Below, in pieces: positions 36,538 through 45,132 of a DNA stretch of 64,000 nt. The DNA lies in assembly GCA_945903265.1 (NCBI GenBank), contig CAMDNQ010000001.1, positions 186,001 to 250,000 of the forward strand, in the 5' to 3' direction. The notes below the pieces were generated by a model. The model did not search any database and was not told where the DNA came from. It worked only from the letters and a program-made list of their open reading frames with translations. How positions within the stretch are numbered: the stretch's first letter is position 1; each line of letters opens with the position of its first letter. Source of the DNA: Candidatus Sulfopaludibacter sp. SbA3. Its GTDB lineage: Bacteria > Acidobacteriota > Vicinamibacteria > Vicinamibacterales > UBA2999. The position numbers and the translations under genes are program-made.

Positions 36538-36943
36538 CGTCTTCCATCTCCTCGCCGCGCCAGTACCGCTCCTCGATCGCCTCGATCTCCTCTTCGCTCA
36601 GTCCGAAGTAGTGCCCGACCTCATGGATGAGGGTCTCGCCGATGACCTCGCGAATGTCGTCCTCGTCCTCGCAATCCTCCTCGATCGGCAGCTGGTACAG
36701 CGTGATGCGGTCCGGCAGGTTGTTGCCGAAATCCCACGTCCGCTCGGTGAGGGGCGTGCCCTGATAGAGACCGTACAGCGAATCAGGCGGTTCGATCTCC
36801 ATCTCGGCGAGGAGCTCGGGCGCCGGCTCGGGTTCGATCACCAGCGCGAGGTTCCGCATCTCCTCGCGGAACCGCCGCGGGATCAGGCCGACCGCCTCAC
36901 GAACGAGGCGTTCGAACTCGGCGCGTGGCAGGTGCGATGACAT
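36521..36943 (-). CDS. Metallopeptidase family (minimal zincin) protein
   Basis: A 140-residue acidic protein with the zincin motif His-Glu-Val-Gly-His-Tyr-Phe-Gly-Leu near residue 110, the hallmark of the PF06262-type minimal metallopeptidase family. No signal peptide. An acidic Glu-Asp-Cys-Glu-Asp-Glu-Asp-Asp stretch precedes the motif and an acidic tail follows. The natural substrate of the family is unknown. It starts 47 bases inside nth and runs into rsmA, so translation is coupled. Confidence 0.85.
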   Translation of the reverse strand: MSSHLPRAEFERLVREAVGLIPRRFREEMRNLALVIEPEPAPELLAEMEIEPPDSLYGLYQGTPLTERTWDFGNNLPDRITLYQLPIEEDCEDEDDIREVIGETLIHEVGHYFGLSEEEIEAIEERYWRGEEMEDDGPAR

Positions 36944-37586
36944 CTCGAAAATAGTTGCAGTCCTTGCGAACCGAGCACTCGCCGCACAGCGGCTTCGGAC
37001 GGCAGATGCGCCGGCCGTGCAGAATCTGGACGTCGGACGCGAGCGTCCATTGCGCCTTCGGCAGCGCGGCGCAGAGCTGCTCCTCGACAATCTCCGGATC
37101 GTCGCCGTCGGCGATGCCGATGCGGTTGGACACGCGCAGCACGTGCCGGTCGACAGGAAGGCCCGGGACGCCGAGCGCGTGGCCAAGGACGACGTTCGCG
37201 GTCTTGCGGCCGACGCCGGGCAGCGCGGTGAGCTTCTCCATGTCGGCGGGCACCTGCCCCCCGTGCTCGTCCACCAGCTGCTGTGCCATCCCCATGAGCG
37301 ACTTCGCCTTCTGCCGGAAGAATCCCGTCGACAGGATCATCGGTTCGAGCTCTTTCGCGGTGGCGCGCGCGAGTGCACGCGCGTCGGGGAAGCGCGCAAA
37401 CAGCGCCGGCGTCACCATGTTGACCCGCTCGTCGGTCGACTGCGCCGACAGGATCGTGGCGGCCAGCAGCTCGAAGGGCGTGCGGTAGTGGAGTTCGGTG
37501 TCGGCGTTCGGGTGCTGTGTCGCGAGGGTCCGGATGATCCGCCGCGTGTCGGCGGGCGCTTTCAGTGGACGGGTCCCTTTGTCCAT
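36897..37586 (-). CDS. nth: Endonuclease III
   Basis: A 229-residue DNA glycosylase/AP lyase for oxidised pyrimidines. The helix-hairpin-helix Leu-Pro-Gly-Val-Gly-Arg-Lys-Thr-Ala carries the catalytic Lys; the catalytic Asp is in Val-Asp-Arg-His-Val. Four Cys for a [4Fe-4S] cluster are present but spaced Cys-x5-Cys-x2-Cys-x5-Cys, one residue shorter in the first interval than the classical x6. It overlaps the DUF3467 gene by 25 bases. Placement directly after lexA suggests SOS-linked expression. Confidence 0.94.
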   Translation of the reverse strand: MDKGTRPLKAPADTRRIIRTLATQHPNADTELHYRTPFELLAATILSAQSTDERVNMVTPALFARFPDARALARATAKELEPMILSTGFFRQKAKSLMGMAQQLVDEHGGQVPADMEKLTALPGVGRKTANVVLGHALGVPGLPVDRHVLRVSNRIGIADGDDPEIVEEQLCAALPKAQWTLASDVQILHGRRICRPKPLCGECSVRKDCNYFRDVIAPATRRVRTPRS

Positions 37587-37885
37587 CCGACGTTCGAGTA
37601 CGACTCCGAAAAGACGCGCATGTGCTCCTGCAGCGCTGCCACCAGGTTCGGAATGAACTGGACCGGAACCACCACGCGCGCGCGGACGGGCGCCTTCACC
37701 ACGTGCTGGTTCTCGGCGCGGCGCAGCTCCTCGTCGGAGAGCGGCATCACCTCACAGAACGTCAGCGTGAAGTCGAAGGGGGTATGGGAAATCGAGCAGA
37801 AGTTGGCGTAGATGCGCGGCTCGCCGGTTTGCTCGTCAGGAACGATCGTGAAGTTGATCTGCTTGCGTTCGGGCTGGTCGGACAT
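37562..37885 (-). CDS. DUF3467 family protein
   Basis: A 107-residue soluble protein with the family pattern Ile-Tyr-Ala-Asn-Phe, a Ser-His-Thr-Pro-Phe-Asp-Phe-Thr segment, and a Pro-Val-Gln-Phe-Ile-Pro-Asn-Leu-Val-Ala-Ala-Leu-Gln-Glu helix. Function is unknown in the family. It sits between lexA (57 bases downstream of its stop) and nth (25-base overlap), so it is a candidate for a small DNA-damage-associated protein; that is inference from position only. Confidence 0.82.
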   Translation of the reverse strand: MSDQPERKQINFTIVPDEQTGEPRIYANFCSISHTPFDFTLTFCEVMPLSDEELRRAENQHVVKAPVRARVVVPVQFIPNLVAALQEHMRVFSESYSNVGWTKGPVH

Positions 37886-42508: not shown

Positions 42509-42565
42509 ATTGAAGATCTACGACCGAAGATTGACGATGTGACCAGAGACGGAAGGATTCAGGAG

Positions 42566-43768
42566 ATGTTCGCACAGCGACTTGCGCAGGTATCAGCATC
42601 GGCCACGCTCAAGGCCGCCGCGGCAGCGGAGGCGCTTCGGCGCGCCGGCCACAAGGTGGTGGACTTCACCGCGGGAGAGCCGGACTTCCCGACGCCCGAG
42701 CACGTGAAGGCGGCAGGGAAGGCGGCCATTGACGCCGACTTCACCCGCTACACGGCGGCGGCCGGGATTCCGGAGCTGCGCGACGCGATCGCCACACGCT
42801 ACAAGGGACAGTACGGCGTCGACATCACGACGGCCGAAGTACTGCTGACGGCCGGGGGCAAGCAGGCGCTGTTCAATGCGGCGCTGGCGCTTTTCGATCA
42901 GGGCGACGAGGTCATCACGCACGCGCCGTACTGGCCGACGATTCCCGAGCAGGTAAAGCTGGTCGGAGGCAAGCCGGTCATCGTGCAGACCCGCGCGGAC
43001 GAAGGGTTTGCGGTCCACCCGGAGGCGATCATCGCGGCGATCACCCCGAAGACGAAGGCGATCATCATCAATTCGCCGTGCAATCCGACCGGCGGTCTGG
43101 TGGACGAGGCGACGCTCACGCCGATCGTCGACGCGGCGGCCAAGCGCGGCATCTGGATCATCGTCGACCTCTGCTACGAGCAGCTGATTTACGATCCGGT
43201 CCCGCACAACCTGGTGAAGGTCCTGTTCGATCGGCATCGCGATCGGACGGTGATTGCCGGATCGGCGTCGAAGTCCTATGCCATGACGGGATGGCGCTGC
43301 GGCTGGACGATCGCGCCGAAGGAGCTGACGGCGGCGTTCAACGTCATTCAAGGGCAGACCACTTCGAACATCACGTCGATTACCCAGAAGGCTGCGCTCG
43401 CGGCCGTGTCGGGGTCGCAGGATGCGGTGACGATGATGCTCAACGAGTACAGGAAGCGCAGGGACAACATCCACGCGTGGCTCACGGCGCACCCGGCCAT
43501 CAAATGCGTGAAGCCGAAGGGCGCGTTCTACCTGTTCCCGGATATCTCGGGCCTGCTGGGCGCCGAGGGCATGAAGTCGTCCGCCGATTTTGCCCAGGCA
43601 CTCCTTGAAAAGGAGCACGTGGCGGTAACCGCGGGCGAGGGGTTCGATGCGCCGGGCTACCTGCGCATTTCGTACGCGGCGTCGATGGAAGACCTTCGCG
43701 AGGGCGCCACGCGCATCCTGAGGTTCGCCGAGTCGCTGCAGCCCGCGCGGGCAGGCGCCTCGCGCTGA
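42566..43768 (+). CDS. Class I/II PLP aminotransferase (aspartate aminotransferase-like)
   Basis: A 400-residue fold-type I aminotransferase of the aspartate/aromatic Ib group. Gly-Glu-Pro-Asp-Phe-Pro-Thr-Pro is near residue 40; Asn-Ser-Pro-Cys-Asn-Pro-Thr-Gly-Gly near 165; the PLP Lys in Ser-Ala-Ser-Lys-Ser-Tyr-Ala-Met-Thr-Gly-Trp-Arg near 240; a late Arg in Tyr-Leu-Arg-Ile-Ser-Tyr binds the substrate carboxylate. The ATG at 42566 is preferred, with AAGGA 9 bases upstream; a GTG at 42539 would add nine unconserved residues. It could also transaminate prephenate or aromatic keto acids. Confidence 0.9.
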   Translation: MFAQRLAQVSASATLKAAAAAEALRRAGHKVVDFTAGEPDFPTPEHVKAAGKAAIDADFTRYTAAAGIPELRDAIATRYKGQYGVDITTAEVLLTAGGKQALFNAALALFDQGDEVITHAPYWPTIPEQVKLVGGKPVIVQTRADEGFAVHPEAIIAAITPKTKAIIINSPCNPTGGLVDEATLTPIVDAAAKRGIWIIVDLCYEQLIYDPVPHNLVKVLFDRHRDRTVIAGSASKSYAMTGWRCGWTIAPKELTAAFNVIQGQTTSNITSITQKAALAAVSGSQDAVTMMLNEYRKRRDNIHAWLTAHPAIKCVKPKGAFYLFPDISGLLGAEGMKSSADFAQALLEKEHVAVTAGEGFDAPGYLRISYAASMEDLREGATRILRFAESLQPARAGASR

Positions 43769-45132
43769 CTCCCGATCCCTTTATTCGCATCGTCGGTGCG
43801 GACCATGTCCGCACCGACGCTCCCACCCTCGAGCAGTACGGCCAGGATGCGCTCGGCATCGGCCATCCCCCCGACGTTGTCGTCACCCCCGCGTCCACGC
43901 AGGAGATTGCGGCGATTGCGCGCCTGTGCAACGAGCAGCGCGTGCCGCTCGTCGTCCGCGGTGCGGGAACGGGTTATACCGGCGGGGCAGTGCCCACGCG
44001 GGGCGGCGTGCTTCTCTCGATGGAGCGATTGAACCGGATTCTCGAGATCGACGAGGTCAACCTGCTGGCCGTCGTCGAGCCGAATGTCATCACCGCCGAC
44101 CTGCAGCGGGCGGTCGAGGCGGTGGGCCTGTTCTATCCGCCGGACCCCGCCAGCCTCGAGATGTCGTCGATTGGCGGCAACGTCGCGGAGTGCGCCGGCG
44201 GCCCGCGCGGCTTCAAGTACGGGACGACACGACGGTACGTCCTGGGCCTGGAGGCCGTGCTCCCGACAGGCGAAATCATTGAAACCGGATCGAAGGCGGT
44301 GAAGAACGTCGTCGGCTACGACCTGACGCAGCTGCTCGTCGGGTCGGAAGGGACGCTGGCGATCATCACACGGGTGACGCTGCGCCTCGTGCCAAGACCG
44401 GCGGCGCGGGCGACGCTCCTCGCGGTCTTCTCCGATATTCAGGCTGCTGTCGACGCGGTCAGCGCTCTCATCCGCCGCCGGGTCATTCCCGCCACGATCG
44501 AGCTGCTCGACTCGGAGTCGCTGGCCGCGATGCGCGACACGCTGGATCCGCAGCTCGTCCCGCCGGGCACCGGCGCCATGCTCATCGTCGAGGCTGACGG
44601 CACGCAGCCGGCGGTCGACGCGGAGATCGAGCAGATCGCTGCCGCCTGCCGCGATGTGGGGGCGATTCGCGTGACGCTGGCAGCCGACGACGAGGAGCGC
44701 GCGCGTCTCTGGAGCGCCCGGCGGCTGCTGTCGCTCGCGCTCAAGGCGACCGGCCTCCTCAAGATCAACCACGATGTGGTCGTGCCGCGCGGGCGCGTGC
44801 CGGAGCTGTATGCGGTCGTCGAGGACATGCGTGCGCAGTTCGGGCTGCGAATCGCGGCGTTCGGTCACGCGGGGGACGGGAATATCCACGTCAACCTGCT
44901 GATCAACCGTGACGATCAGGAGGCACGCGAGCGCGCCAGGCGCGCCGAGCGCATGCTCTTCGAACAGGTCGTCGCGCTGGAGGGGTCGATCAGCGGGGAA
45001 CACGGCATCGGCTTCGCCAAGGCCCAGTACATCGGGATCGAGCTGTCGGACGAGGAGATCGCGCTCATGAAGCGCGTGAAGGCGGCGTTCGATCCGAACG
45101 GGATTCTGAATCCGGGGAAGATCTTTCCTTAG
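43765..45132 (+). CDS. glcD: FAD-linked glycolate oxidase subunit GlcD-like, possible CTG start
   Basis: An FAD-binding oxidase of 455 residues if read from the CTG at 43765. Conventional starts only give GTG 43942 (396 residues), which would delete about 59 codons that clearly match the family N-terminus (Ile-Val-Gly-Ala-Asp-His-Val-Arg-Thr-Asp, then Pro-Pro-Asp-Val-Val-Val-Thr-Pro-Ala-Ser-Thr). The FAD loop Arg-Gly-Ala-Gly-Thr-Gly, Gly-Gly-Asn-Val-Ala-Glu, and C-terminal Gly-His-Ala-Gly-Asp-Gly-Asn-Ile-His and Gly-Glu-His-Gly-Ile-Gly are intact. The CTG overlaps the aminotransferase stop as CTGA. ATT near 43780 is another option. Oxidises a 2-hydroxy acid such as glycolate or lactate. Confidence 0.87.
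   Translation: MTPDPFIRIVGADHVRTDAPTLEQYGQDALGIGHPPDVVVTPASTQEIAAIARLCNEQRVPLVVRGAGTGYTGGAVPTRGGVLLSMERLNRILEIDEVNLLAVVEPNVITADLQRAVEAVGLFYPPDPASLEMSSIGGNVAECAGGPRGFKYGTTRRYVLGLEAVLPTGEIIETGSKAVKNVVGYDLTQLLVGSEGTLAIITRVTLRLVPRPAARATLLAVFSDIQAAVDAVSALIRRRVIPATIELLDSESLAAMRDTLDPQLVPPGTGAMLIVEADGTQPAVDAEIEQIAAACRDVGAIRVTLAADDEERARLWSARRLLSLALKATGLLKINHDVVVPRGRVPELYAVVEDMRAQFGLRIAAFGHAGDGNIHVNLLINRDDQEARERARRAERMLFEQVVALEGSISGEHGIGFAKAQYIGIELSDEEIALMKRVKAAFDPNGILNPGKIFP

Follow-up and report, generated by a model that had tools for sequence, protein, structure and literature searches.

The window, i.e., the whole stretch of 64,000 nucleotides that was analyzed (G000:C1:186001-250000), is part of the genome of Candidatus Sulfopaludibacter sp. 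SbA3 (termed G000 below), a member of the Vicinamibacterales whose assembly comprises 3.52 Mb in 45 contigs and is 98.9% complete. Two of its gene junctions are of concern here, with the following features.

42539..43768, plus strand: PLP-dependent aminotransferase (aspartate aminotransferase-like), the upstream partner of glcD, drawn as the longest ORF from GTG 42539
43765..43768, plus strand: CTGA stop-start overlap, in which the proposed CTG start (43765-43767) lies on the aminotransferase TGA (from sequence and overlap scan)
43765..45132, plus strand: glcD-like FAD-linked oxidase, 455 amino acids when counted from CTG (matches to TIGR00387, FAD_binding_4, and FAD-oxidase_C)
43765..43941, plus strand: 59 conserved codons lacking ATG, GTG, and TTG, ahead of GTG 43942 (from sequence and relatives)
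43783..43785, plus strand: ATT, an alternative non-canonical start candidate for glcD that is not favored (script reading of the frame)
36897..37565, minus strand: nth (endonuclease III), with CTG at 37565-37563 followed by AAA, in a CTGA overlap (profile matches and relatives)
37562..37885, minus strand: the gene upstream of nth, whose TGA (37564-37562) makes the CTGA overlap

The 3′ end of the aminotransferase gene reads TCG CGC TGA, the stop codon occupying positions 43766-43768. Direct reading as well as a script place glcD in frame -1 relative to it. The last in-frame stop codon upstream in the glcD frame is TGA 43606; from 43609 onwards the frame is open, and none of its codons between TGA 43606 and GTG 43942 is ATG, GTG, or TTG. 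The first-pass annotation had described both this lack of a canonical start and a CTGA formed jointly by a CTG and the aminotransferase stop, and both descriptions are exact, the overlap being found at 43765-43768; the ATT that it had offered as an alternative start near 43780 is indeed in frame, its true position being 43783. The near-cognate codons of the frame are CTG 43765, ATT 43783, and ATC 43789, followed by further ones later. A four-base stop-start overlap in frame -1, as seen here, is the arrangement by which termination-reinitiation pairs are recognized. Regarding the aminotransferase itself, the ORF opens at GTG 42539, while most relatives carry ATG at the codon equivalent to 42563, which would be the likelier start.

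The codons upstream of GTG 43942 bear the marks of a coding region. When 50 N-terminal codons of glcD are compared with eight close relatives, the differences amount to 86, 61, and 194 at codon positions 1, 2, and 3, respectively, with 32-39 of the 50 residues identical, which means that the region is translated and constrained as protein. With CTG taken as residue 1, position 1 of the FAD_binding_4 profile falls on residue 36, and GTG 43942 corresponds to residue 60, so that a start there would delete approximately the first 24 positions of this domain. The conserved, open N-terminus of 59 codons postulated previously is thus borne out by codon-position bias, residue identity, and domain extent, and glcD possesses translated upstream codons with no usable ATG, GTG, or TTG. 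The match of the product to TIGR00387 covers the full profile length (465 bits, E 2e-139) and lies below the curated cut-off of 567.9, for which reason the protein is called a GlcD-like FAD-linked oxidase here and is not certified as GlcD.

For comparison, 70 distinct glcD loci of at least 58% identity were collected from Vicinamibacterales/Acidobacteriota metagenome assemblies, nearly all of them drafts; L062 was omitted because it reads N there. A canonical start is missing close to the N-terminus in the window and in the relatives G014 (L004), G015 (L013), G027 (L017), and G016 (L018), that is, in five of the 17 closest loci versus none of the 52 other scored loci (Fisher p 0.00055). On the glcD tree, the five loci require at least four changes, all of which fall within one supported clade. 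G014 offers a single start candidate nearby, an ATA that forms ATAG with the TAG stop; the candidates are CTA within CTAA or a later ACG in G016 and, in G015 and G027, either ACG or else CTG at codon +5. The four relatives are thus not clean CTG cases. The remaining relatives have ATG, GTG, or TTG a few codons upstream or downstream of the CTG position of the window, not exactly aligned with it. The suggested comparison with orthologues, meant to show whether they begin with ATGA at this very point, supports the non-AUG reading by a less direct route: no glcD relative has ATGA at the exact base, and the exchange of ATG, GTG, or TTG for CTG is encountered in other genes, where, in G000 as well as in relatives, CTGA stands opposite ATGA or GTGA at aligned starts. 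As separate observations, recG of G014 (L121) likewise has no canonical start and shows ATA over the upstream TAG (ATAG), as does glcD of that genome; and the public records of L037 and L073 are titled Acidimicrobiia bacterium, although their glcD closely matches that of Acidobacteriota relatives, so that these labels may be wrong. The glcD junction of L037 is the same as that of G014.

The second CTGA start of the window, that of nth, was pointed to by a control comprising 18 syntenic ORFs in 20 loci, from which the spurious ORF 36521_37186 (one row) was dropped as an artefact, along with one rsmD row (L121) and one aminotransferase row (L131) with over-extended queries. The nth start takes the form NTG followed by AAA or AAG, N being C in the window and in six relatives (7/14); in five other genomes, the aligned start codon is TTG, GTG, or ATG. 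No canonical alternative is present within 30 codons upstream in L124, L128, and L130, while for the window copy of nth an ATG lies within the preceding gene, seven codons upstream.

Altogether, six genes in addition to glcD have CTG at the orthologous start site in 703 kb of G000, namely uvrB, the isocitrate dehydrogenase gene (idh), rdgB, gckA, cnnM, and nth. Orthologues were checked in a family of 43 genomes, with 30 loci read per gene. In uvrB of G000, TAG is followed by a single base (C) and CTG; 29 of the 30 loci have ATG, GTG, or TTG, and CTG is confined to G000. In idh, TAA is directly followed by CTG. Here, CTG is found in three of the 30 loci, namely in G000 and, within CTGA overlaps, in G026 and G004; the other 27 have a canonical start, in most cases at the identical codon (ATGA in G014, for instance). 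The CTG of rdgB, six codons past an in-frame stop in G000, is found in two of 30 loci (G000 and G014) against canonical codons in 28. For cnnM, encoding a CNNM/CBS transporter, CTGA is restricted to G000, and the remaining 29 of 30 loci have ATG, GTG, or TTG at the same codon or, once, three codons earlier. Hence, the CTG of G000 lies at the position of the orthologous canonical start in idh, rdgB, uvrB, cnnM, and nth. The picture is different for gckA, the gene of a glycerate 2-kinase (DUF4147/MOFRL) with CTGA in G000, whose CTG appears to be kept across the family: among the 25 of 30 loci with an alignable N-terminus, CTGA occurs in 22 (including L337, whose CTGA sits at +8), CTAA in two, and a CTG just past TAA in one. 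In some loci, the preceding gene contains a canonical codon that lies 8 to 25 codons upstream. In the sister family, the N-terminus could be aligned in two of six loci, with TTGA in G037 and ATG in L417. The first canonical codon downstream of CTG in G000 is reached at +59 in glcD, +48 in uvrB, +80 in idh, +36 in rdgB, +13 in cnnM, +33 in gckA, and +49 in nth. Counting against the CTG reading, canonical codons are present upstream in nth (ATG at -7) and gckA (GTG at -33).

These cases derive from two scans. In the first, a codon-usage gene model was applied to 703 kb of G000 (608 genes), and genes were flagged when the coding signal extended at least 12 codons before any canonical start. Seven of the 608 genes were flagged, the CTG cases among them being glcD, uvrB, idh, and rdgB. 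Two further flags were rejected as start cases, C10:15510 as likely spurious and pilQ on account of a nonsense codon in frame. The latter gene, encoding a type IV pilus secretin outside the window, contains an in-frame TAG (G000:C1:101188-101190) at a site where 18 of 19 other loci have a sense codon, mostly AAG, L414 being unaligned there; a nonsense mutation, a strain variant, or a consensus error would account for it. The seventh flag fell on an acyltransferase-like gene (assigned by translation; G000:C15:6062-6796, minus strand; L217), which lacks a canonical start and has a candidate ATA over TAA (ATAA). The second scan, for stop-start overlaps, returned 22 CTGA junctions in G000, 11 of which read CTGATG and offer a canonical ATG. 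From the other 11, gckA, cnnM, glcD, and nth were counted as CTG starts; the rest were left aside because a canonical codon lay close by or the boundary was unclear. In G000, seven of 608 genes (1.2%) thus have CTG at the start site, a figure that comes from two scans and is not an unbiased sample. An earlier scan of the C1 contig of G000 and 19 contigs of relatives had flagged 13 of 813 genes; several of these belong to glcD, recG, or nth, and several are probably false positives. In the control genome G037, the codon-usage scan flagged nine of 283 genes, most of them fragment-like by eye. In one, b:163971, the boundary carries CTG. This control is noisy, and no rate is based on it.

Taking the evidence together, CTG is likely a genuine start codon in this Vicinamibacterales lineage, used in about one gene per hundred, with glcD starting at CTG 43765. 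The non-AUG start in a CTGA overlap that had been suggested for glcD is the best reading of the locus, and it is backed by the orthologous CTG starts in other genes. Four other explanations were weighed against it.

An initiation of glcD at ATT 43783 or ATC 43789, in the manner of infC (AUU/AUC/AUA), is improbable. It is well known that infC has an AUU-type start and is an autoregulated special case. In the family under study, infC starts with ATC in 26 of 30 loci and with ATA in four, mostly after a purine-rich stretch, and since this non-canonical start was recovered in 30/30 loci, the approach is seen to recover a known kind of case. Both ATT and ATC are in the glcD frame, and glcD of G014 seems to begin at an ATA aligned with residue 9. 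Against such a start, CTG sits where orthologues start and makes the overlap with the stop, it is used by six other genes of G000, and a purine-rich stretch is not evident before 43783. The CTG genes are metabolic, transport, and repair genes unrelated to infC, with which they share a non-canonical start in a conserved gene.

A sequencing or assembly error that turned ATG into CTG at 43765 is very unlikely. G000 is a draft in 45 contigs, its pilQ carries the TAG mentioned above, and changing C to A would restore an ATGA coupling; but CTG occupies the start site in seven genes of G000 and in orthologues from several other assemblies, which rules out a single misread base as a general explanation, and the canonical start of glcD is missing in five independent assemblies. 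There is slighter reason still to assume an aminotransferase-GlcD fusion, formed by -1 frameshifting or readthrough at the upstream stop with no separate initiation. Measured from the aminotransferase stop, glcD lies in frame -1 in the window, G014, and G016, but in frame 0 in G015 and +1 in G027, and as the relation differs between relatives, a programmed frameshift is excluded as common cause; in addition, other relatives have separate canonical starts, the CTG starts of rdgB and uvrB are outside -1 overlaps, and no slippery heptamer is seen in the sequence of the junction. Translation of GlcD solely from GTG 43942, the first canonical codon, with the upstream part as a relic, can practically be dismissed given that the upstream codons are constrained (86/61/194), conserved in relatives, and encode the beginning of FAD_binding_4.

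Returning to initiation at CTG, a special initiator tRNA was considered and rejected, since a search of G000 for exact GGG/CCC stems with CAN anticodons yielded a single initiator-type anticodon stem, GGGCTCATAACCC, with normal G-C pairs in a tRNA-Met of anticodon CAT, and neither a CAG-anticodon initiator nor an M1-type change. Therefore, CUG would presumably be read by the normal initiator, whose anticodon CAU would pair with it via a first-position mismatch, and the GlcD-like protein would begin with Met. The M1 variant of tRNA-fMet loses discrimination against CUG and would favor this codon relatively (PMC11497404); its change is not found in G000, where the stem is of the normal type. The Shine-Dalgarno motif precedes 21% of canonical starts versus 11% of sites inside genes in G000. 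By duplex score, the canonical starts of this genome are not distinguished from internal sites, and Shine-Dalgarno pairing lends CTG no independent support. In G037 of the sister family, the signal is stronger (39% of starts versus 10% of internal sites).

Among the seven CTG cases of G000, glcD, gckA, cnnM, and nth are CTGA overlaps. The CTG codons of idh and uvrB begin zero and one base after a stop, respectively, and uvrB and rdgB are without a stop-start overlap. Such proximity to stops, together with a Shine-Dalgarno signal that is weak in this genome, would fit termination-reinitiation. At a CTGA overlap, the ribosome terminating on the upstream gene would remain on the mRNA, step back by one base, and re-initiate, which would allow a weak start codon to be tolerated. 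The output of the downstream gene would then be tied to that of the upstream gene and be lower than it. At the CTGA of glcD, such re-initiation is plausible. As far as can be judged from sequence, CTG would be a minor yet regular start codon of the lineage, often placed in stop-start overlaps and probably aided there by coupled re-initiation. A bolder version, in which the family as a whole is less strict about its start codons, with CUG as a regular fourth one, long kept as in gckA, and in which the overlap codon (CTGA, ATAG, CTAA) initiates almost whatever its identity by in-place re-initiation of the terminating ribosome, is put forward tentatively and is the more doubtful proposition.

Non-canonical bacterial starts have been described outside this phylum; proteomics of Deinococcus deserti (Baudet, 2010) reportedly revealed an unwonted use of non-canonical initiation codons, which, as far as a comparison by paper title goes, is a parallel from another phylum. 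Our literature search, which was confined to open-licence papers, turned up nothing on CTG starts in Acidobacteria. CUG is stated to make up 0.024% of start codons in bacteria and yields 0.86% of the AUG output in E. coli reporters, which weighs against the CTG reading; start strength is ranked AUG > GUG > UUG >> CUG, with CUG paired to initiator tRNA CAU (PMC11497404). Switches to CUG in 36 genome triplets number 2 in 61,358 from AUG, 1 in 5,080 from GUG, and 1 in 2,468 from UUG (PMC5622118), and CTG was not enriched in mycobacterial reporters (PMC4633059). In comparison with this rare use of CUG, the cases reported here are recurrent across a family and concern 7/608 genes; part of the rarity in published counts may stem from gene finders, which seldom call CTG. 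Coupling through four-base overlaps is known as RTGA in mycobacteria (PMC4633059) and as ATGA or GTGA in archaea and bacteria (PMC6728339, PMC10666635), and by term search the main text of the latter two papers makes no mention of CTGA couplings. The overlaps described here have the same extent (-4) and gene order, with CTGA, and possibly ATAG and CTAA, in place of ATGA or GTGA.

The phenomenon would thus extend beyond glcD, initiation at rare codons being recurrent in one lineage and often located in stop-start overlaps. For annotation, this means that gene finders limited to ATG, GTG, and TTG truncate GlcD by 59 residues and isocitrate dehydrogenase by 80, or otherwise shift starts into upstream genes. 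Why bacteria accept GUG and UUG and shun CUG is stated not to be clear (PMC11497404). A lineage with CUG starts at about 1% of its genes, one of them kept family-wide, allows this avoidance to be approached by comparison, setting its initiation factors, 16S rRNA, and overlap context against those of sister families.
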